Shown here piece after piece: positions 2 to 16,634 of a stretch of DNA of 64,000 nucleotides. A program made the position numbers and the translations under genes. Position 1 is the stretch's first letter, and every line of letters begins with the position of its first letter. The stretch is from Streptomyces sp. cg36. GTDB taxonomy: Bacteria; Actinomycetota; Actinomycetes; Streptomycetales; Streptomycetaceae. The stretch lies in assembly GCF_041080675.1 (NCBI RefSeq), contig NZ_CP163520.1, positions 4,712,001-4,776,000 of the forward strand. Reading direction: 5' to 3'. The notes beneath the pieces were generated by a model. That model was given only the letters and a program-made list of their open reading frames with translations, did no database searches and was not told the origin of the DNA.

Positions 2-2038
2 CCGGACAACGCAAGTGAGGTGACCGCCGCCGGAATCGCCCGGCTCGCCGGGGTCGGCCGCGCGGCCGTCAGCAACTGGCGGCGCCGCCACGCCGACTTC
101 CCCAAGCCCGTCGGCGGCACCGAGACCAGCCCCTCCTTCGCCCTGGGCGAGGTCGAGCAGTGGCTGCGCGACCAGGGCAAACTCGCCGAGGTCCCGCTGC
201 GCGAGCGGGTCTGGCAGCAGCTGTCGGGCCACCCCGCCGGGGCCGTGACCGCCCTGGTCCACGCGGGCCGCGTGCTCCTTCTCGTACGGGACGACCCGGA
301 GGGCTGGCGCCGGCTCGCCGCGCTGGGCGACGCCGAGCTGGCCGAGCGGCTGCCGAGGGCGCTGGACGAGTCCGTTCACAGCGGCCCTGTGAACACCCCC
401 GCCCCGGTGCCGGGTGAGCTCGCCGCGTCCGTGCCGCTGCTGCGCGGCGTCGGGGAGCTCGCCGCCGAGCTGGGCGCCCGGCAGACCTTCGAGTTCCTGC
501 TCGGCCGTCACCTCGACGCCAACCCGCGCCAGTACACGCTCACGCCCCCCGGCCCCGCCGAGCTGATGGCCGCGCTGGCGCTGGGGTCGCAGGCCGCCTC
601 GGTGCTGGACCCGGCGTGCGGCACCGGCACCCTGCTGCGGGCCGTCCCGCACGCCGAGTCGGTGTACGGGCAGGACACCGACCCCGAACTCGCGGCGCTC
701 GCCGGGCTGCGGCTCGCCCTGCACGGCGCGGCCGACGTGCGCACCGCCGCCGCCGACTCGCTGCGCGCCGACGCCTTCCCTGGCCTCGCCGTGGACGCGG
801 TGCTCTGCCACCCGCCGTTCAACGAGCGCAACTGGGGCCACGACGAACTGGGCTACGACCCGCGCTGGGAGTACGGGCTGCCCGCGCGCACCGAGTCCGA
901 ACTGGCCTGGGTGCAGCACGCCCTGGCCCGGCTGCGCGAGGGCGGCACCGCCGTCCTGCTGATGCCCCCGGCCGCCGCCTCCCGCCGCTCGGGCCGCCGC
1001 ATCCGCGCCGGGCTGCTGCGCCGGGGCGCGCTGCGGGCGGTGATCGCGCTGCCCGCCGGGGCCGCGCCCCCGTACGGCATCCCGCTCCAGCTGTGGGTGC
1101 TGCGCAAGCCCGGCGCGGGCGTCCAGGCGGCGCCCGAGCTGCTGGTGGTGGACGCGGCGGGGCTGCCCGGCGCCGCCGAGGCCGGGCGCGGCAAGCTGCC
1201 GTGGCAGAGCGTGCAGAGCGCGGTCCTCGACGCCTGGACGCCCTTCGACCGGGACGGCACCGCCGAGGAGCGGCCCGGGGTGAGCCGGTCGGTGCCGGTC
1301 ATCGAACTCCTCGACGACGACGTGGACCTGGCCCCCGCCCGCCATCTGCCGCCCCCGGCCGCCCCGGGCGGCGCCGACGCGCTGGACGCGGTGCGGGAGC
1401 GGCTCGGCGAGACCCTGCGCCGCACCGCCGAACTGACGCCCCCGCCCGCCGGGGACGTCCCGCATCCCGGCGCCCGGCTGCCGCTCACCACCGTCGGCGA
1501 ACTCGCCCGCGCGGGCGCCCTGGTGCTGCGCTCCGGCGGCGCGGGCACCTCGGCCTCGGGCACCCCGGTCCTGACCGAGCACGACGTGCTCACCGGCGCC
1601 GCGCCCTCCGCCACCCTGCCCGAGGGCCCCGCCGAGGAGCCGGTGCTGACCGAACCCGGCGATGTGGTGGTGCCGGTGCTGGGCGGCGCGGCGGCGGCGC
1701 GGGTGATCGACGCGGAGACGGCCGGGGCGGCGCTCGGGCGCAACCTCCAGCTGCTGCGGCCCGACCCGGCGGCCCTCGACCCCTGGTTCCTCGCCGGGTT
1801 CCTGCGCGGCACCGCCAACAACCGCCAGGCCAGCAGCTACGCCACCACCGCCTCCCGGCTCGATGTGCGCCGGCTCCAGCTGCCCCGCCTCCCGCTGGCC
1901 GAACAGGCGCGCTACGGCGAGCGGTTCCGGGCGCTGGCCGCGTTCGAGGACGCGCTGCGGCTGGCCGGACGGCTCGGCGAGCAGCTGGTGCGGGGGCTGC
2001 ACGACGGGCTGACCGACGGGGTGGTGCGGCCGGAGTAG
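2..2038 (+). CDS. N6-adenine DNA methylase-like protein (HsdM core with HsdS-like tail), 5' end just outside window
   Basis: A GTG at 20 can start the frame, but the frame stays open to the window edge (PDNASE then VTAAG). Base 1 is a G placed to be the last base of a start codon, so the true start is probably an ATG two bases outside the window. Counting from the GTG: residues 1-50 form a DNA-binding head (SNWRRRH, LGEVEQWL). A SAM-binding motif DPACGTG sits near residue 197. The catalytic motif IV reads HPPF near residue 264, where N6-methylases normally have N/D-PP-Y/F. The C-terminal 190 residues resemble one half of an HsdS specificity subunit (NRQASSYATT, LPLAEQARYGERF). No restriction subunit is adjacent. 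Methylase family is fairly certain; activity is doubtful because of the HPPF change. Confidence 0.8.
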   Translation, partial: PDNASEVTAAGIARLAGVGRAAVSNWRRRHADFPKPVGGTETSPSFALGEVEQWLRDQGKLAEVPLRERVWQQLSGHPAGAVTALVHAGRVLLLVRDDPEGWRRLAALGDAELAERLPRALDESVHSGPVNTPAPVPGELAASVPLLRGVGELAAELGARQTFEFLLGRHLDANPRQYTLTPPGPAELMAALALGSQAASVLDPACGTGTLLRAVPHAESVYGQDTDPELAALAGLRLALHGAADVRTAAADSLRADAFPGLAVDAVLCHPPFNERNWGHDELGYDPRWEYGLPARTESELAWVQHALARLREGGTAVLLMPPAAASRRSGRRIRAGLLRRGALRAVIALPAGAAPPYGIPLQLWVLRKPGAGVQAAPELLVVDAAGLPGAAEAGRGKLPWQSVQSAVLDAWTPFDRDGTAEERPGVSRSVPVIELLDDDVDLAPARHLPPPAAPGGADALDAVRERLGETLRRTAELTPPPAGDVPHPGARLPLTTVGELARAGALVLRSGGAGTSASGTPVLTEHDVLTGAAPSATLPEGPAEEPVLTEPGDVVVPVLGGAAAARVIDAETAGAALGRNLQLLRPDPAALDPWFLAGFLRGTANNRQASSYATTASRLDVRRLQLPRLPLAEQARYGERFRALAAFEDALRLAGRLGEQLVRGLHDGLTDGVVRPE

Positions 2039-2148
2039 ATCCGGACCAGCCGGTTCCGTCCCGACGCCCCTGACCTGGGTGGACCCTGACCGGGCGTCAC
2101 CTTTACGCTCTGGCCAGCGATGTACGTACCGCCTTGTCAGGAGCGCAG

Positions 2149-2562
2149 ATGCCGAGCCCCGCGAGCGTGAAGGTGATCACCGTTCGGGTGGTCTTCTCCG
2201 TGCTGGTGGTGCTCACGCTCGGGCTGCTGGCGTGGACGGCGATGCTGCGGCTCGCCATCGTCCGCCGCACCCGGCGCGACTGGCGGCTGTTCTGGGTCCA
2301 GTTGACGGTCAACCTCGGCTGTCTGTCGATGCTGCACACCCACTTCAAGGACACCTGGGTCTCCCACACCGGGATGGCGGTCCTGCTGGTGCAGGGCCTC
2401 GTGGTGGTCGTCCACTACCTGGTCGCCGACACCCACTTCCACCAGCGGAGCCTCCCGTCCCCGCCGCCCCGCCCCCCGGCCGCGCCGTCCCCGCGCATCC
2501 ACCAGGTGCGCGCCGAGCTCGACGAGCTGAGCAGTCTGCTGCGCGAGCAGGAGGGCCGGTGA
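2149..2562 (+). CDS. small membrane protein of unknown function
   Basis: I chose ATG 2149 because AGGAG lies at 2139-2143, five bases upstream. The in-frame TTG at 2134 has no such site. The 137-residue product has about three hydrophobic segments (around residues 8-32, 52-70 and 80-105), a proline-rich stretch (PPPRPPAAPSP) and a charged C-terminal helix (HQVRAELDELSSLLREQEG). I do not recognise the family. Its stop overlaps the start of the downstream Ser/Thr kinase by four bases (GTGA), so the two are probably translationally coupled, and the protein could be a membrane partner of the otherwise soluble-looking kinase. That link is inferred from the overlap alone. Confidence 0.7.
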   Translation: MPSPASVKVITVRVVFSVLVVLTLGLLAWTAMLRLAIVRRTRRDWRLFWVQLTVNLGCLSMLHTHFKDTWVSHTGMAVLLVQGLVVVVHYLVADTHFHQRSLPSPPPRPPAAPSPRIHQVRAELDELSSLLREQEGR

Positions 2563-4052
2563 GCGCCGGACGGGTCGTCGCCGGGCGCTACGAGCTGGCG
2601 GGGCTGCTCGGCCAGGGCGGCATGGGCCAGGTCTGGACGGCGTACGACCAGCGCCTGGACCGCCGGGTCGCGGTGAAGCTGCTCCGGCCCGACCTGGTGG
2701 CGGGCGCGGGGGCGGCCGACGAGACCCGCCGCCGGTTCGTGCGCGAGTGCCGGGTCACTGCGCAGGTCGACCACCGGGGTCTGGTCACCGTCCACGACGC
2801 GGGCAGCGACGGCGACGACCTGTATCTGGTGATGCAGCACGTCGAGGGCGCCGACCTGGCCGACCACCTCGCCGAGCACGAGCCCTACCCCTGGCCGTGG
2901 GCGGTGGCCGTGGCGGCGCAGCTGTGCGCGGTGCTCTCGGCCGTGCACGCGGTGCCGATCGTGCACCGCGACCTGAAGCCGCGCAATGTGATGGTGCGCC
3001 CCGACGGCACGGTCACCGTCCTGGACCTCGGCGTCGCCTCGGTCCTCGACCGCGACACCACCCGCCTCACCCGCACCGGCTCGCCCATCGGCTCCCCGGC
3101 GTACATGGCGCCCGAGCAGGCGATGGGCGGCGCGGTGGGCCCGTACACCGATCTGTACGCGCTCGGTGTGCTGCTGCACGAACTGCTCAGCGGGAACGTG
3201 CCCTTCGCCGGGTCCACCGCCCTCGGCGTGCTCCACCGCCACCTCTACGAGCCGCCGCTGCCGGTCCGCCAGGTCCGGCCGGAGGTGCCCGGGGCGCTGG
3301 AGGCGCTGGTGCTGCGGCTGCTCGCCAAGGACCCGGCGCACCGGCCCGGCTCGGCGCAGGAGGTGTACGAGGCGCTGGCCCCGCTGCTGCCGGGGCGCGG
3401 TGCGCCGTCCGGGCAGCCGCTCGACCCGACGCGTCCGTTCCTGCGCCCGCACGCCCCGTGGCCGGACCGCCCGCCCGCCGCACAGCCCTCCGCGCCGTCC
3501 CCGGCGCACCTGCCGCCCGCCCCTCCCGTCCCGGCCCGCGCCCCCGCACCCGTACCCGCGAACGCGCCGGTGTCCGGTGCCGGGCCGCAGCCCGATGTGG
3601 CGGGGGCGGTCGACGAGGCCAAGCGGCTGCTGGGGGAGGGCCGGATCACCCAGGCCGTGGACGTCCTGGGCGCGATCCTGCCGGCCGCCGCCGCCCGGCA
3701 CGGCGAGGCTTCCCCCGTCGTGCGCATCCTGCGCAAGCAGTACGCGGCGACGCTGCTGGACGACGGCCAGTACGGCCGGGCGCTGCCGGAGCTGCGCCGG
3801 CTCGCCGGGGAGCGGGCCGCCGAGGCGGGCCCGGCCGACGCGCAGGCCCTGGCGTTCCGTCAGGACGTGGCGCTCTGTCTGGAGCAGCTGGGGGACGCGG
3901 CGGCGGCGCTCGCCGAGTACCGCGCGGTGCTGTCCCACTTCGAGAGCCCCTACGGCGCCGGCGACCCGGCCCGCGCGGCGGAGGTCCGCGCCCGCGTCGA
4001 GGGGCTGCTGCGGCTGCCGGGCGGTCGCGGGACGGTCGTGGGGCGCTCTTGA
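2559..4052 (+). CDS. Hanks-type serine/threonine protein kinase with TPR-like C-terminus
   Basis: Starts at GTG 2559, overlapping the previous stop by 4 bp; 497 aa. The kinase domain fills residues 5-270: glycine loop GQGGMGQVW, VAVK lysine, catalytic HRDLKPRN, a DLG in place of the usual DFG magnesium motif, and YMAPEQ. A Pro/Ala-rich linker follows (about 285-345), then a helical region (about 350-490) reading like tetratricopeptide repeats (EAKRLLGEGRITQAVDVL; ALCLEQLGDAAAALAEYRAVL). There is no transmembrane segment and no PASTA domain, so it is probably cytosolic unless tethered by the upstream membrane protein. Kinase assignment is secure; the target is unknown. Confidence 0.9.
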   Translation: MSAGRVVAGRYELAGLLGQGGMGQVWTAYDQRLDRRVAVKLLRPDLVAGAGAADETRRRFVRECRVTAQVDHRGLVTVHDAGSDGDDLYLVMQHVEGADLADHLAEHEPYPWPWAVAVAAQLCAVLSAVHAVPIVHRDLKPRNVMVRPDGTVTVLDLGVASVLDRDTTRLTRTGSPIGSPAYMAPEQAMGGAVGPYTDLYALGVLLHELLSGNVPFAGSTALGVLHRHLYEPPLPVRQVRPEVPGALEALVLRLLAKDPAHRPGSAQEVYEALAPLLPGRGAPSGQPLDPTRPFLRPHAPWPDRPPAAQPSAPSPAHLPPAPPVPARAPAPVPANAPVSGAGPQPDVAGAVDEAKRLLGEGRITQAVDVLGAILPAAAARHGEASPVVRILRKQYAATLLDDGQYGRALPELRRLAGERAAEAGPADAQALAFRQDVALCLEQLGDAAAALAEYRAVLSHFESPYGAGDPARAAEVRARVEGLLRLPGGRGTVVGRS

Positions 4053-4286
4053 ACCGCGCCTGACGCCTGCGGGCCGGGGTATGGCGGCGGACTTCTTCTG
4101 GCAAAAGTCCAGGAAAGTCCGAATCGGACAGACGGAACAACTCCTTCCACTTAAGTAAGGGGTTGCTCAAGCAGCCACCAAGAAAAACCCTGCTGACTGT
4201 CATTTAGGTGCTCTTTACGGACAAGATCGGGCGCGTTTTGTCTCGCGCATATGTCTATACCTTTCTTTCCGTTGGGAGTCGCCCCC

Positions 4287-7200
4287 GTGCGTCCACGTCC
4301 ACCCGCCCGTCCCTCCCCGAGAAGACGGGCCTCGCACGTCCGCCGCAGACAGCGGCGGATCGCGATGTTCCTGCTCACCACCCTCGCGCTGATGCTGACC
4401 ACGCAGCAGGCCATGGCCGACGACGCGCACCTGACCCGGATATCCCTGCCGGGCCTCAGCTCGCTCACCTCCTGGTTCAAGGACCCGCACTGGGGCTCGC
4501 TCCCCAAGCAGCAGGGCGGCACCGCCGCCGGGCACGGCCACCACGCCAGTGCCGCCGCCACCAAGGCGAACAAGGGCAAGGGCCGCAAGCCGGGCAAGGG
4601 CCACGGTGAGCTCGACGCCTACCACCCGTACGCGAAGGCCACCAAGGGCGGCAAGAGCCGCTCGGCCCAGGGCTTCAACGCCCGGACCAGCCACCGCAAC
4701 CCGGGCAAGTCCTCCCGTACCGCCACGGTCTTCGACAACGCGGACGGCACGACGACCCGCCAGGTCGCCCTCACCCCGGTGAACTACCGGGACGACAAGG
4801 GCGACTGGCAGCCGATCGACGTGGACGTCAGAGCGGGCCCCGACCACCGCTGGCACGAGAGCGCCAACTCGCTCGACGTGGACTTCGCCGCCAAGGGCGC
4901 CGACTCCGCGCTGGCCTCCTTCGCCACCGACGGCTCGCACGCCCTCAGCTACGGCCTGAAGGGCGCCGCCGCCGTCACCGGCACGGCGCACGGCTCCAAG
5001 GTCAGCTACCCGAACGTGCTCCCCGACACCGACCTGGAGCTCGCGCCCACCGCGACCGGGCTCAAGGAAGCGATCGTCCTGCACTCCGCGAAGGCCGGGA
5101 ACACCTGGACCTTCCCCCTCGACCTCAAGGGCCTGACCGCCCGGCAGGCCGAGGACGGCTCCATCGGCCTGCTGGACTCGGCGGGCCGGACCGTCGAGCG
5201 CATCCCTTCCGCGTACGCCTACGACGCGAAGGTCGATCCGCGCTCCGGTGACCCCGCCACCACGCACGCCGTCGGCTACCAGCTGGTCCGCGACGGCAAG
5301 GGCACCGCGCTGAAGGTCACCCTCGACCCGCGCTGGCTCCACGACCGCGCCCGGGTCTTCCCGGTCACCGTCGACCCGACCGTCACCGACGGCTGGACCA
5401 CCACGTACGCGGAGTCGGGCGCCCCCGGCGACCACTCCTCCGAGCAGACCGTCAAGGTCGGCTCCTACGACTCCGGCCCGCACTCGGCGGCCTCGTACGT
5501 CAACCACTGGTACAACACGTGGGACGGCACCCACGCCACGGTCACCTCGGCGACCCTGCACCTCTTCGACACCTGGGCCTCCACCTGCACGCCCGAGCGG
5601 TTCGACGTCGCCCTGGTCACCAAGGCGTGGACGCCCACCTCGGTCACCGGCTACCCGGGCCCGTCCTACGGCGCCTCCATCGGCAACGCCACCCCCAGCG
5701 TGCCCAAGGCGTGCGCCAACACCGGCGCCGACCGGACCGTGGGCGACTGGGTCGACGTGCCGCTGAGCACCACCGCGCTCCAGGGCTGGTTCAACGGCAC
5801 CACCCCGGACTACGGCCTCGCGGTCTACGCGGCCACCAACGACGCCCTGCACTGGAAGCAGTTCGGCTCGTTCAACGACCCGGCGCTCGGCCCGTACATG
5901 TCGGTCACCTACACCGGCAACGCGGCCCCGCAGATCTACCAGCAGTACCCGAACAACAACGCGGTCGTCGGCACCACCACGCCCGAGCTGACCGCCTGGG
6001 CCGGTGACGACGTCACCACCACGCCGCAGTACGACTTCCAGGTCTACGACAACACCAACACCAAGGTCGCCGACTCCGGCCTGATCGCGAACGGCGACTG
6101 GACCGTCCCGGCGGGCAAGCTCAAGTGGGGCCAGACCTACTACTGGACGGTCCAGGGCTACGACGGCTCGCTCTACACCCCGGCCGCCGACTGGTACGCG
6201 CTGCAGATCCAGGTCCCCCAGCCGGTGATCACCTCGGGCCTGTCGCAGAACAGCAGCGACCACGGCTTCGACGCCTCCAGCGGCAACTACACCACCACCG
6301 ACACCGACGCCTCCATATCCACCGTCGGACCCAGCCTCGACGTGGTGCGCGACTACAACTCCCGCGACCCGCGCTGGACCGGCTCCTTCGGCGCCGGCTG
6401 GTCGGCCATCCTCGACACCCGCGCCACCGAGCAGTACGGCGCCTCCGGCGCGGTGACCGGCGCGGTCGTGTCCTACCCGAACGGTTCGCAGGTCGGCTTC
6501 GGCAAGAACGGCGACGGCAGCTTCTCCGCCGGCTCCGGCCGCTTCGCCACCTTCAAGTCGGTCACCGGCGGCTACTCGCTGACCGACAAGGACGACACCG
6601 TCTACGCCTTCACCCAGGCGCTGGGCTCCGGCGGCTACGGCCTCACCTCGGTGACCGACGCCAACGGCCGGTCCCTCACCCTCACCTGGAGCGGCGGCCA
6701 CGTCAGCAAGATGGCCTCGGCCGTCTCGGGGCGCGCCCTGAACGTCACCTGGTCCACCCCGTCCGGCGCGCTGGCCGCGCACGTGGCGACCGTGGTCACC
6801 GACCCGGTGGTCGCGGGCAACCAGTCCACCGCGCTGACCTGGACCTACGGCTACACCGGCGACCAGCTCGTCTCGGTCTGCCCGCCGTCCTCCACCACCG
6901 CGTGCACCAAGTACACCTACGCGGCGGGCTCGCAGTACCAGAACGCCTCGCTCGACCTCGGCCCGCGCGCCATGTGGCCGCTGTCGGACGCCTCCGGCAC
7001 GGTCGCCAAGGACGCGGTCCTCGGCAACGAGAACACCCTCGACGCCACCTACAAGAACGTCACCCTCGGCCAGGCGGGCCCGCCGAACGGCGGCACCGCG
7101 GCCGGGTTCAACGGCACCTCCTCCGCGGTGGCGCTGCCCAACGACACCGGCAACAACACCGACTCGGGCGCCCTGTCGCTCTGGTTCAAGACGTCGGCCG

Positions 7201-10200
7201 GGCCGGGCGTGCTCTACTCGTACGCCTCCCAGCCCATCGACGCGGGCAACGCGGCGGGCTACTACACCCCGTCGCTCTACGTCGGCGGCGACGGCAAGCT
7301 GAACGCCGAGTTCTGGTACAGCGGCGGCATCGCCCCGCTCACCACCTCCGCGTCGGTCGCCGACGGCAAGTGGCACCACGTGGTGCTCTCCGCCGCGGGC
7401 AACTCGCAGACGCTCTTCCTCGACAACGCCAAGGTCGGCTCGCTCTCGGGCACCGTCTCCATCAAGAGCGGCACCGCCTTCGGCAAGAACCAGCCGTTCA
7501 ACTACCTCGGCACCGGCTTCCTGGGCGGCAACTGGCCCGACCAGCCGCACCAGAGCAGCACCAGCAAGACCGGCTACGCCACCTACTTCAACGGCTCCAT
7601 CGCGGGCGCCGCCTGGTACGACCGCCCGCTGGTGGCCGCCGACGTCGACGCGCTCTACAGCTACGGCACCCACACCGCCAGCCTGCTGTCGTCCATCACC
7701 CGCCCGTCCGGCAAGACGTACGCGGCGATGGCCTACGACCCGGGCAGCGCGGCGCTCACCCAGCTCACCGACGAGAACGGCGGCGTCTGGAAGCTCGGCG
7801 CCCCCACGGTCACCGGCTCCAGCCAGACCTACCGGGGCGCGGTCCTCGGCGGCGCGCCCGCCACCTACTTCCGCCTCGGCGAGGCGGCCGGGGCGGGCGG
7901 CGCGGCCGACGAGACGCGCGGCGGCACCGGCACCTACAGCAACGTGACGCTGGGGGCCACCGGTCCCTTCGCCGACCAGAAGGCGGCGGCGTTCAACGGC
8001 ACCAGCTCCTGGGTGCGGGTCCCGGACGTCCAGACCGGCAGCACCGCCGCCTCGGCCGAGCTGTGGTTCGCCACCACGCACGGCGGCGCGATCCTGCTGA
8101 ACGCGCAGAACGGGCCGATCGGCGGCACGGTCACCTCGACCACCCCGCAGCTGTGGATCGGCACCGACAACAAGCTGTACGGCGGCTTCTACACCACCTC
8201 CGGCTCCGTCCAGATGGGCACCACCGGCACGGTCACCGACGGAAAGTGGCACCACGCGCTGCTCTCCGCGACCGGCACCGGCCAGACCCTCTACCTGGAC
8301 GGCACCCAGGCGGCGAGCAAGACCGGCACGGCGGCGCTGACCACCGGCGGACGCACCACCGACTACCTCGGCGGCGCCACCACCGGCTCCGGCTGGGCCG
8401 GACTGCCCTACCCGGCGACCGTGTACTTCAACGGCTCGCTGGCGGAGGCCGCCACCTACCGCACGGCGCTCACCGCGCAGGACGCGGCGGCGCACTTCCA
8501 GGCCGCCAAGAACTCCACGGGCCTGCTGCCGGTGTCGACCGTCAAGGTCACCTCGCCGGCCGACGCCACCCTCACCTACCAGTACGACGTCAACCACAAC
8601 AACCGCACGCTGACCGAGACCGACGGGCTGGGCAACACCACCAGCTTCGGCTACGACACCGGCGGCTTCGAGCACACCGTCACCAACCCCAACGGGGCGA
8701 CGACGGTCACCGGCCACGACGTCCGCGGCAACACGGTCTCCACGACCACCTGCCAGAACCAGGCGGCCAACGCCTGCTCCACGGAGTACTTCAGCTACTT
8801 CCCGGACGACACCACCGCGCAGCTCACCACCGCCGACCCGCGCAACGACATCCTGCTGACCCGCCGCGACGGGCGCTCCGCCTCGGAGACGGACAACACG
8901 TATCTGACCTCGTTCGGCTACGACAGCGCGGGCAACCAGACCACCATCACCGGTCCGGCCGTGGCGGGCTTCCCGGGCGGGCGCACCACCACGACCGTCT
9001 TCAGTGACGGCACCGCCACCTACCCGGCGGCCGACGGCGGCAACGTGCCCAAGGGCCTGCCGGTGAAGACCGTCAGCCCCGGTGGCGCGGTCAACTCCGT
9101 GGCGTACCTGAAGAACGGCGACGTGGCCTCGACCACCGACGCCGTCGGCCTCGTCACCTCGTACACCTACGACGGGGTCGGCCAGGTCCTCACCAAGAAG
9201 GTCGTCTCCGACACCTACCCGGCCGGGCTCACCACGTCGTACACGTACGACGCGGACGGCCAGGTCGTGCAGGAGAAGGACCCGCAGCTCACCGACCGGG
9301 TCACCGGCGCGGCGCACGCGGCGGTCTCCAGCACCGGGTACGACGTCGACGGCAACGTCACCTCGCAGTCCGTCGCGGACGCGAGCGGCGGCGACTCCAC
9401 ACGCACCGAGACGCAGACCTACGACGCCTACGACCACCTCGCCACCAAGAAGGACGCCAACGCCAACGCGGGCGCGCCCAACGGCAACACGGTCACCTAC
9501 ACCTACGACAGCCAGGGCAACAAGACCAAGGAGGTCTCCTCGGCGGGCACCGAGACCCGCTACACCTACGACGACAACGGGCAGCTGCTGACCCAGGGCG
9601 TCATGTACGGCGGCGACCCGGCCGACCCGCAGACGCCGTCGCTGCTCACCGAGTCCTCCCGGGCCTACGACCCGGCGGGCCGCCTCGCGTCGGTCACCGA
9701 CGCCATGGGCGCGACCACGTCGTACACCTACACCGACAACGGCCTGACGGCCACCGTCACCAAGAAGAGCGCGGACGGCAGCAGCTCCACCGTGCTCCAG
9801 TCCAACACCTACGACGCCGCCGGCAACGTGGTCTCCACGGCCAGCGACAACGGCGAGACCGTCGTCAACAACACGGTGGACGCGGCCTCCCGCAACACCT
9901 CCACCACCGTGGACCCGACCGGCGTCAACCGCGTCACCAGCGTGTCCTACACGCCGGACGACGAGGTCGCCACCGAGAACAGCCACGACGCCTCGGGCTG
10001 GGACCGCACGATCACCCACGCGTACGACGCGATGGGCAACAAGATCGCCGAGACGCTCTACGGGGACGCCGCCGGGCACCCCAGCGGCTGGTGGAAGCTG
10101 GACCAGTCGTCCGGCTCGACCGTGACCGACGCCTCCGGCTCCGGCAACACCGGCGCCGCGACCGGCGTGACGTGGGACGGCTCCGCCGCGAACTTCGCGG

Positions 10201-13200
10201 GCAACGGGGGCCAGCAGATCGCCACCAACGGCCCGGTGCTCGACACCGCGGCCTCCTACACGGTCTCCGCGTGGGTGAACATGGCGTCCCTGCCGACCCA
10301 CAACGCCACGGTGGTGGCCCAGACCGGCACCACCAACAGCGCGTTCATGCTCCAGTACAACTACGCGCACACCAACGCGCCGCTGTGGTCCATGGAGCAG
10401 ACCAGCACCGACGCGGCGGGCACCTCGTTCCCGGCCGCCTACTCCACCGCCAAGCCCGTCGCGGGCACCTGGACCCATGTCGTCGGCGTCTACAACGCCA
10501 CCAACGGCGCGGTGCAGGTGTACGTCAACGGCACGCTCTCCGGCAGCGCCACCAACAGCGCGCCCTGGAGCGCGCACGGCCCGCTGGTCATCGGCGGCGC
10601 CAAGTACGCGGGCACCCTGGGCGACGCACTGCCCGGCGGGGTCGCCAACGTGCAGGTCTACCAGCGCGCGTTCAGCTCCGCCGACGTCACCTCGCTGTAC
10701 GGCAAGGGGCGCACCGGCGGCACCGCCGCCTCCTCGGACGAGCAGAAGACCACGTACACCTACGACAAGCGCGGTCTGCGCACGTCCATGACGGACGCCA
10801 ACCAGAACACCACCACCTACGCCCACGACGAGGCCGGGAACCTGGCGGTCACCACCGCCCCGGCGGTCCAGGCGGAGGCGGACGGCACCGGCCCGGTGAC
10901 CGTGCGGCCCGTCACCACCAGCGGGTTCAACACCTTCGGCGAAGCCGTCGAGGAGCAGGGCCCGAACGGCGACGTGACCACCACGGCCTACGACGCCGGC
11001 GGCAACAAGGTCTCCGAGACCCTGCCGCGGTACACCCCGGCCGGGGAGAGCGCGCCGGTCACCGCCCCCGCCACCTGGACGTACGACAGCGAGGGCAACC
11101 AGACGTCGGCGACCACCCCGGGCGGGCGCACCACCAGCTACCTCTACGACCAGCTGGGCCGCGTCACCCGGGTCACCCGGCCCGACGGCGCGACCACGCG
11201 CAGCACCTACGACAACGCCGGCGACCCCCTCTCGGTGACCGACGGCACCGGTGCCAGCACCCAGGCGACCTATGACTACCTGGGCCGCCAGCTCACCTCG
11301 ACCACCCTGGAGCGCTTCCCGTCCACCCGGACGCTGACCAGCACCAACTCCTACGCGGTCACCTCCGGCAACCCGTACGGCACGCACGTGTCGTCGACCA
11401 CCACGCCGGGCGGGGTCACCACCTCGTACGGCTACGACCGCGCGGGCGAGACCACCTCGGTCACCGACGCGTCGGGCAACACCACCCGGTACACCTACGA
11501 CTTCCAGGGCAACCCCCAGAAGACGATCCTGCCGGACAACACCTGGACGGAGACCGACTACAACGCGGAGGGGCAGCCGACGTACAACAAGCAGTACGAC
11601 GCGTCGGACACCCTGCTCGCCCAGTCCTCGGTCAGCTACGACGCGGTGGGCAACGCGGTCGCCTCGACCGACGCCAACGGCCACACCTCCCGCTTCACCT
11701 ACGACGCGGCGGGCACGGTCACCCAGGAGGTCCAGCCGGTCTCCGCCACCGAGTCGATCACCACCAGCTTCGGCTACGACCAGGCGGGCCACCGCACCCG
11801 GTTCACCGACGGGCGGGGCAACTCCTGGCGCTACACCTACACCCCGTGGGGCCAGCAGGAGAAGGTGACCGAGCCGTCCACCGCGCAGTACACCTCGGCG
11901 GCGGACACCACCACCACCTACGGCTATGACGCCGACGGGCGGATGGTGAAGGCGGTCAAGCCGGGCGGCACGTCGACGTCCCTGACGTACGACAAGAACG
12001 ACCGGGTGCTGACCATGGACGGCCAGGGCGCGGACGCCGCGACCGCCAGCCGCTCCTTCAGCTACGACAAGTCGGGCCGGGTCCTCACGGCCGACACCGC
12101 CGAGGCGGGCATCACGGGCAACGCCGACCACCAGTCGGCCACCCACGAGGCGTTCGGCTACGACGACCGCGGGGACCTGCTCTCCGCGTCCGGCTCCGCC
12201 GGTGCGTCGAGCTTCACCTACAACGCCGACTCGGCCCCGCTGACCCGCACCGACGCGGCCGGTACGACGACGTACGGCTACGACACCGCGGGCCGGCTGT
12301 CCACCCTGGACGACGCGGCCACCGGCAACCGGCTCACCTACACGTACGGGAAGCTCAACGAGCTCTCCCAGATCAAGTACGGCGCCACCGGCCAGACCCG
12401 CACCTTCGGCTACGACTCCGCGCACCGGCTGACCAGCGACACCCTGATGCAGGGCGCCACCGGTCTCGCCTCCGTCGGCTACGGCTACGACAAGAACGGC
12501 AACCTGACGTCCAAGGCGACGACCGGGGTGCCGGGCGCGGCCAACCACACCTACACCTACGACTGGGCCAACCGGCTCACCTCGTGGAACAACGGCTCCA
12601 CGACGACCGCCTACGGCTACGACGCCTCCGGCAACCGCACCCGGGTCGGCGCGGACGTCTACACCTACGACGCCCGCGACCAGCTGACCTCGGACGGCAA
12701 CCACAGCTACAGCTACTCGGCCCGGGGCACCATGACCCAGCAGGCCGGGTCGGACGGCACCGTCGCCTTCACCACCGACGCGTTCGGCGCCCAGATCACC
12801 GCGGGCACCCACGCCTACAACCTGGACGCGGCCGGGCGGAACATCACCGACACCGACTCCGCGACCCAGGGCAGCCGCACCTTCCAGTACTCGGGCGCGA
12901 GCAACACCATCGCCTCCGACGGCAACTACACCTACACCTACGACCCGTCCGGCGGCGTGGTCGGCATCGGCAACGGCTCCTCCGGGAGCGCGCTCGCCCT
13001 CACCGACCAGCACGACGACGTCATCGGCACCTTCACGGCCGGCGCGACCGCGCTCTCCGGCTCGGCGAGCTACGACCCGCTGGGCAAGGGCGTCGGGACC
13101 AACACCGTCCTCGGCCACCTCGGCTTCCAGTCCGGCTGGACCGAGCCCGGCTCGGGCGACGTGGGCACGGCCTCGCGCTGGTACAACCCGGCGACCGGCC

Positions 13201-15164
13201 AGTTCCGCAACAAGGACTCCATCTCGCTGAACCCGGTCCCGAACTCGGTGTCCGCGAACCCGTTCGCGTACGTCAACGACAACCCGCTCGCGGGCACGGA
13301 CCAGTCCGGCAACTGCTCCTGGTACGACGTGGTGTGCGGCGCCAAGAAGGTGGTCCACAAGGCCGCCGCGGTCGTCCACCAGGTCGCGGCGCCGATCTAC
13401 CACGCCGCCGTCCAGGTGGTGCACCAGGTCGTCCAGGTCGCCAAGCACGTGGCGAAGAAGGTCGTCCACACGGTCCGTGACGTGTACCGCTCCACGGTCC
13501 GCGTGGTGCGCCGGGTCTACCACTACGCCGTACGCAAGGTGAAGCGGGTCTACCACGCGGCGGTGCACGCGGTGCACACCGCCTACCACAAGGTCACCAA
13601 GACGGTGAAGCGCGTGGTCACGGCGGTGAAGAAGACCGCCAAGGCGGCCGTCCACACCGTCGCCAAGGCGGCCCGCACGGCGTACCACGCCACGGTGACG
13701 GCGGCCAAGAGCACGGCCACCTTCGTCAAGAACCACGCCGCCGCGATCACCTCGTTCGTGGTCTCCACGGCGGTCTTCATGGGCTGCGAGGCGGTCACCG
13801 CGGGCGTCGGCTCCATCGGCTGCGCGGCGGTCGCCGGAGCGGTCGGCTCCCTGGTCACCCAGGGCTTCGCCTGCGCCCAGAAGGGCGGCGACCAGTGCAG
13901 CCTCGGGGCCTTCGCGGGCTCCGCGGTGGAGGGCGCGGCATCCGGCGCGCTCGGCGGCGTCCTCGGCAAGATCGGCGGCTCCCTGCTGGCGAAGGCCGCG
14001 CCCAAGGCGATGAAGGCCGTGGGCGGTCTGTTCGGCAAGGGGGCGGCGGCGGAGGAGACCGCGGCCCGCGACGCCACGGAGACGGCGGCGTCCAGGGCCG
14101 AGGCGGAAGGGGCCGGTGGCCGCAGCGAATCCGCCGCGAGCTGCACGCGTCCGCACAGCTTCACCGGCAACACCAAGGTGCTGATGGCCAACGGGTCGAC
14201 CAAGGCCATCGACAGGATCAAGGTCGGCGACACCGTCGCCAACGCGGTGCCGGGGGCTTCCGCCACCGAGTCGCACAAGGTCACCGCGGTGATCGTCACC
14301 AAGACGGACCACGACTTCGTGGACGTCACGGTGAAGGCGGCGAAGCGCGGCGCGACGGTCAAGAAGGCGGTCCGCAGGGCGGCGCTGGGCCTCGCGGCCT
14401 CGGCGGCGGTCCTCGGCGCGCTGACGGCGGCCCCGCAGAAGGCACAGGCGGCGGAGGTGACCGCCAAGGGCGACCACCTCACCACCACGTTCCACCACCC
14501 GTTCTACGACGCCACGCAGTCGGCGTTCGTGGAGGCGAAGGACCTCCACGAGGGCGACACCCTCCAGACCCCGACCGGCACGGCCGAGGTCACGGGCGTC
14601 CGCCTGTACCACGCGAACACGACGACGTACGACCTGACGATCGGGTCGCTGCACACGTACTTCGTGGAGGCGGGGGACACGCCGGTTCTCGTCCACAACT
14701 GCAACATCGGGCAGGACGAGGCCCACGGCATCATCGACAAGATCACCGACCCGCTGAAGGCGCACCGGCAGAAGGTCCTCGCCGATGCGGCCAAGCACGG
14801 TGTGGAGCCGCCGACCACCGTCTCCATCGCCTTCGACCGGGCAGCCGGCGAGGGCAGCGAGATCACGGGCGTCGGCTTCCGCGGCGAGGCGGCCACCATG
14901 GGTGGCCGGCACGGTCTCGACCACGAGATCACCGAGCACATGCCGAAGTCGTCCCTGGAGCCGTGGCCCGACGTGGAGGGCTGCGCGGAGATCGGAGCCT
15001 GTACGGGAGCGTTCGACGCCGGTGCGTCGGCACGTCCGAACCTGGCGTTCCTGACCGTCAACACGAAGACGGGTGCGCCGATGCCGTTCTGCAAGAATTG
15101 CGCGGCGACGTTCCACGATGCCGTGGACCTGTTCAAGCACTTGAGGCCGGGCGATGCATTCTGA
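4287..15164 (+). CDS. giant secreted RHS/YD-repeat polymorphic toxin with Hint domain and C-terminal deaminase-type toxin
   Basis: I prefer GTG 4287 (GGGAG at 4274-4278, 8 bases upstream) over ATG 4251, which has no ribosome site; 3,625 aa. In order: Arg-rich signal peptide with core 25-38 and probable cleavage after AMA (42-44); DNRLRE-like domain (about 365-545); start of the RHS shell (about 656); LamG-like domains at about 890-1120, 1190-1400 and 1930-2140; YD repeats at about 1420-1925 and 2150-2930; RHS core with RWYNPATGQF (about 2928-3008); a Lys/His/Val-rich helical tract (3010-3150) followed by hydrophobic stretches; Hint domain from Cys3286 to VLVHN/Cys3472; and a 154-residue toxin tip. 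The tip carries CAE (Cys3566, Glu3568) and CKNC (Cys3602, Cys3605), the two zinc motifs of the cytidine-deaminase fold, most like YwqJ-type toxins. The immunity gene overlaps the 3' end. Confidence 0.93.
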   Translation: MRPRPPARPSPRRRASHVRRRQRRIAMFLLTTLALMLTTQQAMADDAHLTRISLPGLSSLTSWFKDPHWGSLPKQQGGTAAGHGHHASAAATKANKGKGRKPGKGHGELDAYHPYAKATKGGKSRSAQGFNARTSHRNPGKSSRTATVFDNADGTTTRQVALTPVNYRDDKGDWQPIDVDVRAGPDHRWHESANSLDVDFAAKGADSALASFATDGSHALSYGLKGAAAVTGTAHGSKVSYPNVLPDTDLELAPTATGLKEAIVLHSAKAGNTWTFPLDLKGLTARQAEDGSIGLLDSAGRTVERIPSAYAYDAKVDPRSGDPATTHAVGYQLVRDGKGTALKVTLDPRWLHDRARVFPVTVDPTVTDGWTTTYAESGAPGDHSSEQTVKVGSYDSGPHSAASYVNHWYNTWDGTHATVTSATLHLFDTWASTCTPERFDVALVTKAWTPTSVTGYPGPSYGASIGNATPSVPKACANTGADRTVGDWVDVPLSTTALQGWFNGTTPDYGLAVYAATNDALHWKQFGSFNDPALGPYMSVTYTGNAAPQIYQQYPNNNAVVGTTTPELTAWAGDDVTTTPQYDFQVYDNTNTKVADSGLIANGDWTVPAGKLKWGQTYYWTVQGYDGSLYTPAADWYALQIQVPQPVITSGLSQNSSDHGFDASSGNYTTTDTDASISTVGPSLDVVRDYNSRDPRWTGSFGAGWSAILDTRATEQYGASGAVTGAVVSYPNGSQVGFGKNGDGSFSAGSGRFATFKSVTGGYSLTDKDDTVYAFTQALGSGGYGLTSVTDANGRSLTLTWSGGHVSKMASAVSGRALNVTWSTPSGALAAHVATVVTDPVVAGNQSTALTWTYGYTGDQLVSVCPPSSTTACTKYTYAAGSQYQNASLDLGPRAMWPLSDASGTVAKDAVLGNENTLDATYKNVTLGQAGPPNGGTAAGFNGTSSAVALPNDTGNNTDSGALSLWFKTSAGPGVLYSYASQPIDAGNAAGYYTPSLYVGGDGKLNAEFWYSGGIAPLTTSASVADGKWHHVVLSAAGNSQTLFLDNAKVGSLSGTVSIKSGTAFGKNQPFNYLGTGFLGGNWPDQPHQSSTSKTGYATYFNGSIAGAAWYDRPLVAADVDALYSYGTHTASLLSSITRPSGKTYAAMAYDPGSAALTQLTDENGGVWKLGAPTVTGSSQTYRGAVLGGAPATYFRLGEAAGAGGAADETRGGTGTYSNVTLGATGPFADQKAAAFNGTSSWVRVPDVQTGSTAASAELWFATTHGGAILLNAQNGPIGGTVTSTTPQLWIGTDNKLYGGFYTTSGSVQMGTTGTVTDGKWHHALLSATGTGQTLYLDGTQAASKTGTAALTTGGRTTDYLGGATTGSGWAGLPYPATVYFNGSLAEAATYRTALTAQDAAAHFQAAKNSTGLLPVSTVKVTSPADATLTYQYDVNHNNRTLTETDGLGNTTSFGYDTGGFEHTVTNPNGATTVTGHDVRGNTVSTTTCQNQAANACSTEYFSYFPDDTTAQLTTADPRNDILLTRRDGRSASETDNTYLTSFGYDSAGNQTTITGPAVAGFPGGRTTTTVFSDGTATYPAADGGNVPKGLPVKTVSPGGAVNSVAYLKNGDVASTTDAVGLVTSYTYDGVGQVLTKKVVSDTYPAGLTTSYTYDADGQVVQEKDPQLTDRVTGAAHAAVSSTGYDVDGNVTSQSVADASGGDSTRTETQTYDAYDHLATKKDANANAGAPNGNTVTYTYDSQGNKTKEVSSAGTETRYTYDDNGQLLTQGVMYGGDPADPQTPSLLTESSRAYDPAGRLASVTDAMGATTSYTYTDNGLTATVTKKSADGSSSTVLQSNTYDAAGNVVSTASDNGETVVNNTVDAASRNTSTTVDPTGVNRVTSVSYTPDDEVATENSHDASGWDRTITHAYDAMGNKIAETLYGDAAGHPSGWWKLDQSSGSTVTDASGSGNTGAATGVTWDGSAANFAGNGGQQIATNGPVLDTAASYTVSAWVNMASLPTHNATVVAQTGTTNSAFMLQYNYAHTNAPLWSMEQTSTDAAGTSFPAAYSTAKPVAGTWTHVVGVYNATNGAVQVYVNGTLSGSATNSAPWSAHGPLVIGGAKYAGTLGDALPGGVANVQVYQRAFSSADVTSLYGKGRTGGTAASSDEQKTTYTYDKRGLRTSMTDANQNTTTYAHDEAGNLAVTTAPAVQAEADGTGPVTVRPVTTSGFNTFGEAVEEQGPNGDVTTTAYDAGGNKVSETLPRYTPAGESAPVTAPATWTYDSEGNQTSATTPGGRTTSYLYDQLGRVTRVTRPDGATTRSTYDNAGDPLSVTDGTGASTQATYDYLGRQLTSTTLERFPSTRTLTSTNSYAVTSGNPYGTHVSSTTTPGGVTTSYGYDRAGETTSVTDASGNTTRYTYDFQGNPQKTILPDNTWTETDYNAEGQPTYNKQYDASDTLLAQSSVSYDAVGNAVASTDANGHTSRFTYDAAGTVTQEVQPVSATESITTSFGYDQAGHRTRFTDGRGNSWRYTYTPWGQQEKVTEPSTAQYTSAADTTTTYGYDADGRMVKAVKPGGTSTSLTYDKNDRVLTMDGQGADAATASRSFSYDKSGRVLTADTAEAGITGNADHQSATHEAFGYDDRGDLLSASGSAGASSFTYNADSAPLTRTDAAGTTTYGYDTAGRLSTLDDAATGNRLTYTYGKLNELSQIKYGATGQTRTFGYDSAHRLTSDTLMQGATGLASVGYGYDKNGNLTSKATTGVPGAANHTYTYDWANRLTSWNNGSTTTAYGYDASGNRTRVGADVYTYDARDQLTSDGNHSYSYSARGTMTQQAGSDGTVAFTTDAFGAQITAGTHAYNLDAAGRNITDTDSATQGSRTFQYSGASNTIASDGNYTYTYDPSGGVVGIGNGSSGSALALTDQHDDVIGTFTAGATALSGSASYDPLGKGVGTNTVLGHLGFQSGWTEPGSGDVGTASRWYNPATGQFRNKDSISLNPVPNSVSANPFAYVNDNPLAGTDQSGNCSWYDVVCGAKKVVHKAAAVVHQVAAPIYHAAVQVVHQVVQVAKHVAKKVVHTVRDVYRSTVRVVRRVYHYAVRKVKRVYHAAVHAVHTAYHKVTKTVKRVVTAVKKTAKAAVHTVAKAARTAYHATVTAAKSTATFVKNHAAAITSFVVSTAVFMGCEAVTAGVGSIGCAAVAGAVGSLVTQGFACAQKGGDQCSLGAFAGSAVEGAASGALGGVLGKIGGSLLAKAAPKAMKAVGGLFGKGAAAEETAARDATETAASRAEAEGAGGRSESAASCTRPHSFTGNTKVLMANGSTKAIDRIKVGDTVANAVPGASATESHKVTAVIVTKTDHDFVDVTVKAAKRGATVKKAVRRAALGLAASAAVLGALTAAPQKAQAAEVTAKGDHLTTTFHHPFYDATQSAFVEAKDLHEGDTLQTPTGTAEVTGVRLYHANTTTYDLTIGSLHTYFVEAGDTPVLVHNCNIGQDEAHGIIDKITDPLKAHRQKVLADAAKHGVEPPTTVSIAFDRAAGEGSEITGVGFRGEAATMGGRHGLDHEITEHMPKSSLEPWPDVEGCAEIGACTGAFDAGASARPNLAFLTVNTKTGAPMPFCKNCAATFHDAVDLFKHLRPGDAF

Positions 15165-15657
15165 CGCTTCTGACGTTGGCGAAGAGCGGTACGAGGACGC
15201 GGCCCGCCGCGTCCTGCGGACCGCGGGGTGGGTGCCGGGCCGTGCGTCCGGCACCGCCCCGGCGGCCGGACTGGTCGCCGAGTACGGACCCGCTCCCCGG
15301 GCGGCCCTGGCGTTCCTCGACGAGTTCGGCGGGCTGCGCCTGGTCTTCACCGATCCCCGGGACAGCGCGTCCGAGTCGGACGTGGAGATCATCACCCCGG
15401 AGATCACCGGGTGGGTGACCACCTGGAGCCGGGCGGCGGGTGAACCCGTGTACCCGGTAGGTGTGTTCGGCGGTCGAAACTGCGTCCTGCTGGTCGGCGA
15501 GAGCGGCGCCCTGTACGGGGCCTTCGACGCCGTCCTGGGCAGGCTGGGCGCGGACGCGCTGGAGGGCCTGGGTAGGCTCGTGCTCGATACGAGCCCGCTG
15601 GAGCCGCGCCTTCCGGTGCCGCCGGAGGCCGTGTACCGGCATGAGTTCCTCGAGTAG
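15154..15657 (+). CDS. SUKH-3-like immunity protein for the RHS toxin
   Basis: 167 aa. The ATG at 15154 lies inside the toxin gene's last codons (11-bp overlap, different frame), with GAGG just upstream. The pattern is that of SUKH immunity proteins: an N-terminal helix with RVLRTAGW, then FLDEFGGLRLVF, then a compact alpha/beta body ending in a short helix. SUKH proteins are known antidotes of nuclease and deaminase tips in polymorphic toxin systems, and SUKH-3 often accompanies YwqJ-type deaminases. Position, overlap and family all agree that it neutralises the C-terminal domain of the preceding protein in the cytoplasm. Pairing with this specific toxin is inferred. Confidence 0.85.
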   Translation: MHSDASDVGEERYEDAARRVLRTAGWVPGRASGTAPAAGLVAEYGPAPRAALAFLDEFGGLRLVFTDPRDSASESDVEIITPEITGWVTTWSRAAGEPVYPVGVFGGRNCVLLVGESGALYGAFDAVLGRLGADALEGLGRLVLDTSPLEPRLPVPPEAVYRHEFLE

Positions 15658-15684: not shown

Positions 15685-15717
15685 GGGGAGGGAGCGTGCT
15701 CGGCGCGCTCCCTCCCC
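15685..15717 (+). terminator. hairpin terminator after the toxin/immunity pair
   Basis: GGGGAGGGAGCG (15685-15696) pairs perfectly with CGCTCCCTCCCC (15706-15717) across a 9-base loop, followed by TCTTTACTT. It separates the toxin/immunity genes from the DUF1906 gene. Confidence 0.8.
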
Positions 15718-15764
15718 TCTTTACTTCGCTATTGCCCCTTCCCTGTGACCAGTTGAGGATCGAC

Positions 15765-16634
15765 GTGGCCCGTCACCGCCTGTCCAAGAAGCACCGCACC
15801 ATAGCCATGGCCCTCGGCGGCGCGGCCCTGCTCGTCGGTGGGGCCATCACCGCCGAGGCCGCTTCCTCCGGGAGCGGGAGTGCGGCCACCGGCGGCATCG
15901 CCGCCCGGCCCGTTTCGCTGTCCAAGCCCGCCACCTTCACCGGCCGCGCCTTCGACACCTGCACCGCCCCCACCCTCGCCCAGATGAAGGCGTGGAAGAC
16001 GGCCTCCCCGTACGGCGCCGCCGCCGTCTACATCGGGGGCAAGAACCGGGGGTGTGCCCAGCCGCAGCTCACCGCCTCCTGGGTGACGTCGGTCAGCGCC
16101 GTCGGGTGGAAGCTGATCCCCCTCTACGTCGGCGCGCAGCCCCCGTGCCGTTCCGGGAGCAACCCGGAGAAGATGACGGCCGCCAACGCCGCCTCGCTGG
16201 GCGCCACCGACGGCGCCGACGCCGGGGCGAAGGCCGCCGCGCTCGGGATGCGGCCGGGCAGCGCGGTCTATCTGGACGTGGAGGGGTTCGACCTGAAGAA
16301 CACCTCCTGCAAGGACACCGTCCTCAGCTACACCCGCGCCTGGAACCGCGCCGCCCACGCCAAGGGCTACCGCACCGGTTTCTACGGCTTCGCCACCTCC
16401 GGCGCCGCCGCCGTGGCCGCCGTCTCGCCGGGCACGGACATGCCGGACGCGATCTGGTACGCGGCCTACGACGGCGTGGCGTCGACCACCACCGGCTACC
16501 CGTTCGGCGCCAAGTGGCCGGTCCACCGCCGGGGCCACCAGTACGCCATCGAGAAGAAGGAGACGTACGGCGGTGTGACGCTGACGGTGGACCAGAACGC
16601 CTGGGACTCCATGGTCGCGGTCGTCGCCAAGTAG
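15765..16634 (+). CDS. secreted DUF1906 (Rv2525c-like, glycoside-hydrolase-like fold) protein
   Basis: Start is GTG 15765, with GAGGA at 15755-15759; an upstream extension to 15696 would run through the terminator and is rejected. 289 aa. A signal peptide (RTIAMALGGAALLVGG, then AEAASS) is followed by a single TIM-barrel-like domain: GRAFDTCTAPTLAQMKAW, AAVYIGG, YLDVEGFD (the acidic site typical of the family), YRTGFYGF, and DQNAWD near the end. DUF1906 proteins resemble lysozyme-like glycosidases and are exported, but substrates are unproven. It is preceded by a terminator and converges on yfhO with only 25 bp between. Confidence 0.85.
   Translation: MARHRLSKKHRTIAMALGGAALLVGGAITAEAASSGSGSAATGGIAARPVSLSKPATFTGRAFDTCTAPTLAQMKAWKTASPYGAAAVYIGGKNRGCAQPQLTASWVTSVSAVGWKLIPLYVGAQPPCRSGSNPEKMTAANAASLGATDGADAGAKAAALGMRPGSAVYLDVEGFDLKNTSCKDTVLSYTRAWNRAAHAKGYRTGFYGFATSGAAAVAAVSPGTDMPDAIWYAAYDGVASTTTGYPFGAKWPVHRRGHQYAIEKKETYGGVTLTVDQNAWDSMVAVVAK

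Follow-up and report, generated by a model that had tools for sequence, protein, structure and literature searches.

In the 64,000-nucleotide stretch of Streptomyces sp. cg36 DNA analysed here (the window; positions 4,712,001 to 4,776,000 of contig NZ_CP163520.1), one gene encodes an RHS toxin of 3625 residues that is a real, open-framed and rare member of a well-described toxin kind. The locus as a whole is very probably explained by an RHS toxin whose zinc-deaminase tip harms a recipient cell and whose SUKH-3 neighbour is protective.

Architecture of the RHS gene and its SUKH-3 neighbour

The RHS gene begins with a GTG at 4287, and GGGAG at 4274-4278 lies 8 bases ahead of it; a ribosome site comparable to this one is absent from the alternative in-frame ATG at 4251, which would add 12 residues. 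The protein is ordered into a signal-like N-terminus, three laminin-G-like domains, RHS repeats, a Hint domain, and a tip of 154 residues. The features are listed below in window coordinates.

4287..15164, + strand: RHS toxin gene, GTG start, TGA at 15162-15164, 3625 aa
4287..4418, + strand: signal-peptide-like N-terminus, arginine-rich, hydrophobic at residues 25-43, ending AMA; Kyte-Doolittle peak 1.45
6948..7667, + strand: laminin-G-like domain 1 (Laminin_G_2, residues 967-1106; outer bounds by reading)
7830..8510, + strand: laminin-G-like domain 2 (among the three Laminin_G_3 stretches; position and bounds by reading)
10077..10709, + strand: laminin-G-like domain 3 (Laminin_G_3, residues 1974-2134; outer bounds by reading)
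13113..13310, + strand: RHS-associated core, end of the shell (TIGR03696, 6.9e-9; bounds by reading)
13740..13856, + strand: hydrophobic stretch in the interval between shell and Hint (hydropathy peaks at residues 3152 and 3172)
14142..14699, + strand: Hint domain, starting with Cys and ending VLVHN (PT-HINT PF07591, 8.3e-13; bounds by reading)
14373..14450, + strand: hydrophobic signal-like helix inserted in the Hint domain (hydropathy and reading)
14700..15161, + strand: toxin tip, residues 3472-3625, 154 aa; YwqJ-like deaminase superfamily, assigned via relatives
14979..15002, + strand: putative first zinc/catalytic motif GCAEIGAC with Cys3566 and Glu3568 (tip alignment and reading)
15090..15101, + strand: putative second zinc motif CKNC with Cys3602 and Cys3605 (tip alignment and reading)
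15154..15657, + strand: SUKH-3 immunity gene, 167 aa (PF14433, 5.8e-15; 11-bp overlap with the toxin stop)
15696-16634: Rv2525c-like gene (PF08924) following the toxin-immunity pair

Pfam found three Laminin_G_3 stretches in the RHS protein (E 1.3e-41) and RHS_repeat PF05593 at E 6.2e-83, with 25 stretches at E<=1 and 10 at E<=1e-3. The RHS/YD repeats and the RHS-associated core precede a variable C-terminus, the layout of an RHS polymorphic toxin, and the junction between Hint and tip reads VLVHN/C, with HN directly ahead of the tip as in Hint-processed toxins. The adjoining SUKH-3 protein scores 56.2 bits against a PF14433 cut-off of 23, which places it in an immunity family. On recheck, the coordinates and anatomy that the sequence-only reading had given for the toxin (shell, Hint, tip, and SUKH gene) were correct: Pfam recovers its three LamG-like domains, PF07591 its Hint domain and PF14433 its 167-residue SUKH-3-like gene, the 11-bp overlap with the stop was verified, and the 154-residue tip contains CAE (residues 3566-3568) and CKNC (residues 3602-3605) as described. 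The same reading had called the protein secreted; the signal-like N-terminus, present by sequence and by hydropathy, is the sole basis of that claim, and on it the RHS protein is probably secreted.

The same arrangement occurs in Streptomyces sp. ERV7, which has its own SUKH-3 gene overlapping the toxin stop. Over the ∼1820 C-terminal residues compared, the two proteins are 86-98% identical in each full 100-residue block, and the tips are 91% identical. This conservation argues against a chance arrangement. Third-position GC is 0.896 in the tip and 0.874 in the SUKH gene, compared with 0.985 in the shell; the low values were considered as a sign of a foreign cassette, but they are no proof, as the upstream kinase gene is lower still (0.839).

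The helix inserted in the Hint domain was also seen by eye in L048, L078, L101, L102, and L086 and, less alike, in L085; it is absent from the Hint domains of L002, L005, and L067. Such a helix may help the tip to translocate or to insert into a membrane. The interval at 20-4052, immediately ahead of the RHS gene on its upstream side, holds a type I-like N6 DNA methylase gene and then a PknB-like kinase gene, and PADLOC matched it to methyltransferase and PD-T4-6/mad6-type kinase models. These are possible defence genes, and the matches are possibly generic. Further RHS-repeat frames of 2145-3581 aa are found near 2.50, 3.45, 7.55, 8.26, and 8.53 Mb of the same contig (G000:C1).

Relatives of the tip

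In the family sample of 394 genomes, the tip matched 17 places spread over 15 genomes; after the frames had been read, 8 of these places (window included) were judged true and 9 chance (L003, L004, L006, L008, L009, L010, L013, L014, and L015; response-regulator, kinase, or other frames). The E-values of the two groups overlap (3.7e-5 to 9.3e-4 for the chance matches, 3.2e-4 to 7.5e-4 for four true relatives), and the two motifs together with a SUKH gene served to tell them apart. A profile of seven aligned tips, including that of the window and all with CAE and CxxC (A1), found matches in 17 of the 392 genus-sample genomes, own genome counted; one of these matches, L075, is without the motif. 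In the phylum sample the profile matched 3 of 396 genomes, namely the window's own, G056 of the same genus, and, weakly, G958.

Fourteen tips, including the window's, were brought together in a larger alignment (A5). Its invariant positions are two glycines, CAE, a threonine, a further glycine, and both CxxC cysteines; the invariance of CAE is partly a matter of selection, as six rows were extracted by a CAE-type pattern and the four relatives omitted for this motif have CGE. These four (L064, L066, L071, and L074, the last tested apart) show that the first motif is variable at its middle position. Also omitted were copies (L016, a copy of L002; L061, from a genome of the same genus, whose tip DNA equals that of L048; L069 and L070, both near L068), L072, a genus-sample match of A1 whose tip could not be made out, L073, a fragment with CAG, and L075 and L076; L001 and L059 are the window itself.

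Among GTDB-r220 genome contigs, 1 of 57 pattern matches encodes a tip relative, that of Streptomyces sp. ERV7 (91%), in a scan that used two short patterns, can miss relatives and may have passed over the record of the window itself or ones very close to it. After ERV7, the next closest tip is 49% identical (G105, two copies). The viral contigs and phages scanned held no tip relatives; among plasmids the window tip found none and the L005 tip two Streptomyces records. Judged from these sequence scans, close relatives of the window tip are few, and the earlier suggestion that this exact pair may be uncharacterised is probably right, with one near relative in the GTDB-r220 scan.

Assignment of the tip to the YwqJ-like deaminases

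The tip contains the CxE and CxxC zinc motifs that mark YwqJ-like deaminases (PF14431). With the window tip alone, a Pfam search returned no family even at E<=10 and the curated cut-off of PF14431 was not reached; sequence comparison with the PDB gave zinc fingers and a synthase, the best being PRDM9 at E 0.0041. An AlphaFold2 model of the tip, computed from an input of two sequences, had a mean pLDDT of 46.9, too low for use of the fold, and PADLOC models matched neither the tip nor the SUKH protein at E<=0.01.

PF14431 matches 9 of the 14 A5 tips at E<=1 (best 1.8e-5), all below the cut-off among the matches listed (best 25.4 vs 25.9 bits), and L074, found by the A1 profile at 3.9e-7, exceeds the cut-off (1.2e-11, 45.4 bits). 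When the A5 profile was compared with the PDB, 11 of the 23 chains at E<=10 were cytidine deaminases, including the top six; the best, 6kw6_A (E=0.0025), aligns CAE on CAE and CxxC on CxxC, and the other 12 chains (Runt, zinc-finger, xylanase, and TATA-binding) have E 0.54 or worse. All six chains matched by the A1 profile are cytidine deaminases (best 0.058). The E-value of PRDM9 for the single tip is nearly as low as that of the cytidine deaminase for the A5 profile. Aligned by hhalign with a conserved Streptomyces YwqJ set, A5 gave a probability of 12.5% and a score reached by 2 of 200 column shuffles. Against 29 TadA-type sequences no match was obtained and 34 of 200 shuffles were as good, a test that says little, as even the true YwqJ set reached a probability of just 1.3% with TadA. 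Some shuffles had odd high scores of up to 133, which makes the shuffle counts rough.

Taken via its relatives, the comparison supports the tip as a YwqJ-type deaminase-superfamily domain. The sequence-only reading had named a deaminase-type tip and had proposed a search with YwqJ and deaminase HMMs; its claim is supported by the PF14431 matches of the relatives, L074 included, and by the cytidine deaminase match of the profile, whereas a direct match of the window tip is absent. Compared with YwqJ-like deaminases such as B. subtilis YwqJ, the window tip has the same order of CxE and then CxxC and the same place as a toxin tip, it has a relative that passes the family cut-off, and the family has SUKH partners on record in PMC3482391. 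Differently from that family, the window tip itself is unmatched at E<=10, and B. subtilis YwqJ is borne on an LXG protein whereas the window tip is borne on an RHS-Hint shell.

A stand-alone YwqJ deaminase of 193 aa with CPE and CRSC is encoded ∼23 kb before the window begins (G000:C1:4688054-4688969; L116 5022-6105), and its adjoining SUKH-3 gene scores 190 bits. Of the 197 genomes in the order sample, 180 have PF14431, mostly once per genome among the matches listed, which suggests that the stand-alone gene is domesticated and non-polymorphic.

A SUKH-3 gene adjoins every aligned tip

In each of the 14 A5 loci, the toxin gene is directly followed by a gene that scores over the SUKH-3 cut-off, which makes SUKH-3 a constant partner of these tips. 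SUKH is also listed alongside the YwqJ, XOO2897, and BURPS668_1122 deaminases in PMC3482391. The distance matrices of tips and SUKH-3 proteins are correlated with r=0.89 over the 14 pairs and 0.88 without ERV7, values that none of 9999 permutations reached; in such a mirror-tree correlation, binding and shared history give the same signal. The correlation fits evolution of tip and SUKH-3 as a unit, and common descent would look alike. The window protein resembles the SUKH-3 family (PF14433) in its score over the cut-off, its overlapping downstream position and its pairing with every A5 tip; it differs in its low identity of 15-31% with its SUKH-3 counterparts elsewhere in A5, except that of ERV7 (88%).

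Different tips on one shell

A probe of 548 aa, comprising the shell end and the Hint domain, was used to scan 150 genomes and matched 20 of them at E<=1e-20, own genome counted. Four genomes of the same genus carry shells that are 76% (G009), 71% (G418), 77% (G293), and 71% (G457) identical, each followed by another tip after VLVHN. By BLAST, these four tips showed no similarity to the window tip or to each other (best E 0.66), and in three of the four an open frame of at least 90 codons lies close behind the tip. The earlier description of the tips as polymorphic and variable was therefore well founded, the same shell (71-77%) bearing unrelated tips.

In the three genomes whose flanks were compared, the Rv2525c-like gene is also found downstream in two, G009 and G293 (73-74% DNA identity), and the flanks of G418 have no match beyond the shell. 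The methylase and kinase genes upstream of the window's RHS gene are unmatched in all three; by tblastx, only short scattered pieces of the upstream flanks matched among the matches listed. In G009 and G293 the shell and the Rv2525c-like gene are thus kept while both tip and immunity differ, so that tip and immunity genes are swapped on a shell that persists.

G009 also has a second Hint copy (L117), with no tip that can be recognised, located after its tip and ahead of the Rv2525c-like gene; it looks like what is left of an earlier tip cassette. L078, the tip borne by the shell of G009, has, by eye, HAE and a later cysteine pair, and may be a deaminase of another family.

RHS toxins with Hint and laminin-G domains as described in PMC3482391 share with the window protein a signal-like start, laminin-G domains, an RHS core, a Hint domain, a variable tip, and an immunity gene. 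The Hint domain of the window's shell lineage may differ from theirs in its inserted hydrophobic helix.

Proposed mechanism and substrate

The repeats of RHS proteins build a shell around the tip. In the proposed mechanism, the signal-like N-terminus would export the protein, the laminin-G domains would attach it to the cell wall or to a target surface, and the RHS repeats would enclose the tip here as well. The Hint domain, judged from the HN/C junction, would cleave itself off after Asn3471 and release the tip, whose probable destination is a rival bacterium. By homology, Cys3566, Cys3602, and Cys3605 would hold zinc and Glu3568 would be the catalytic acid of a deaminase that acts on a base in nucleic acid or on a free nucleoside or nucleotide and thereby harms the recipient. 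The SUKH-3 protein, constantly paired with the tip, would bind it and shield the producer and its kin. In PMC3482391, laminin-G domains are taken as likely anchors in such toxins.

The substrate is the point at which the readings part. We give an even chance to deamination of cytosine in the DNA or RNA of the recipient, similar to the action of DddA and SsdA on DNA and in line with the nucleic acid editing proposed in the sequence-only reading, and about one third to deamination of free nucleosides, nucleotides or another small molecule that would starve or poison it; these weights follow from the mutation of DNA by other families and from the lack of a visible effect of YwqJ on DNA and rRNA. 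Editing of nucleic acid is favoured by the deaminase-superfamily assignment via relatives and by three other toxin deaminase families whose representatives mutate DNA (PMC7901873), but YwqJ is not among them. In B. subtilis, YwqJ halts growth and left DNA and rRNA without visible effect on agarose gels, an assay blind to deamination, and the authors of that study propose small molecules as the target (PMC8321402). A small-molecule target also accords with the best profile-matched solved chains, since these cytidine deaminases have both CAE and CxxC; against this, the motifs leave the substrate unfixed, as predicted nucleic-acid deaminase toxins share [HCD]xE and CxxC (PMC3482391). The window system resembles DddA and SsdA (BaDTF1-3, PMC7901873) in combining a deaminase-superfamily toxin tip with a dedicated immunity protein, although they are of other families and, in the literature consulted, it is they and not the YwqJ-like tips that have been shown to edit DNA.

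That the tip is no deaminase, but a different enzyme or a domain that binds zinc in a structural role, agrees with the weakly matched zinc-finger and Runt chains, with PRDM9 as the best chain for the tip alone, and with the weak hhalign result for the Streptomyces YwqJ set and the negative one for TadA; it is nevertheless very improbable, since CxE is followed by CxxC in the tip and PF14431 is found in its relatives, with L074 over the cut-off. Very improbable, too, is that the gene is no weapon but a remnant, or encodes a surface protein with a role in development. Secretion and competition are both deduced from sequence, and the genome has another YwqJ/SUKH-3 pair that is nearly universal in the order sample and apparently domesticated; but the open 3625-aa frame, the conservation of the tip in ERV7 and the exchange of tips on the shell all argue against decay or a developmental role. 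The preferred reading remains a toxin with a deaminase tip. It is conceivable, if unlikely, that the tip represents a divergent Streptomyces subclade beside YwqJ and outside Pfam, with a substrate unlike that of the DNA-editing toxins, such as free nucleotides or one particular RNA, and that the Hint helix aids its crossing of the recipient membrane.

The open-access papers searched yielded no mention of PF14431, although YwqJ together with deaminase does occur there. In the literature consulted, YwqJ-like tips are toxic in the case of B. subtilis YwqJ and are without a known substrate. A compact tip with its own SUKH-3 protein, and with relatives on different shells, offers a clean pair for finding one. 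If the tip edits nucleic acid, it would add to the sources of small deaminases; should it act on nucleotides instead, the known killing modes of deaminase toxins would be widened.
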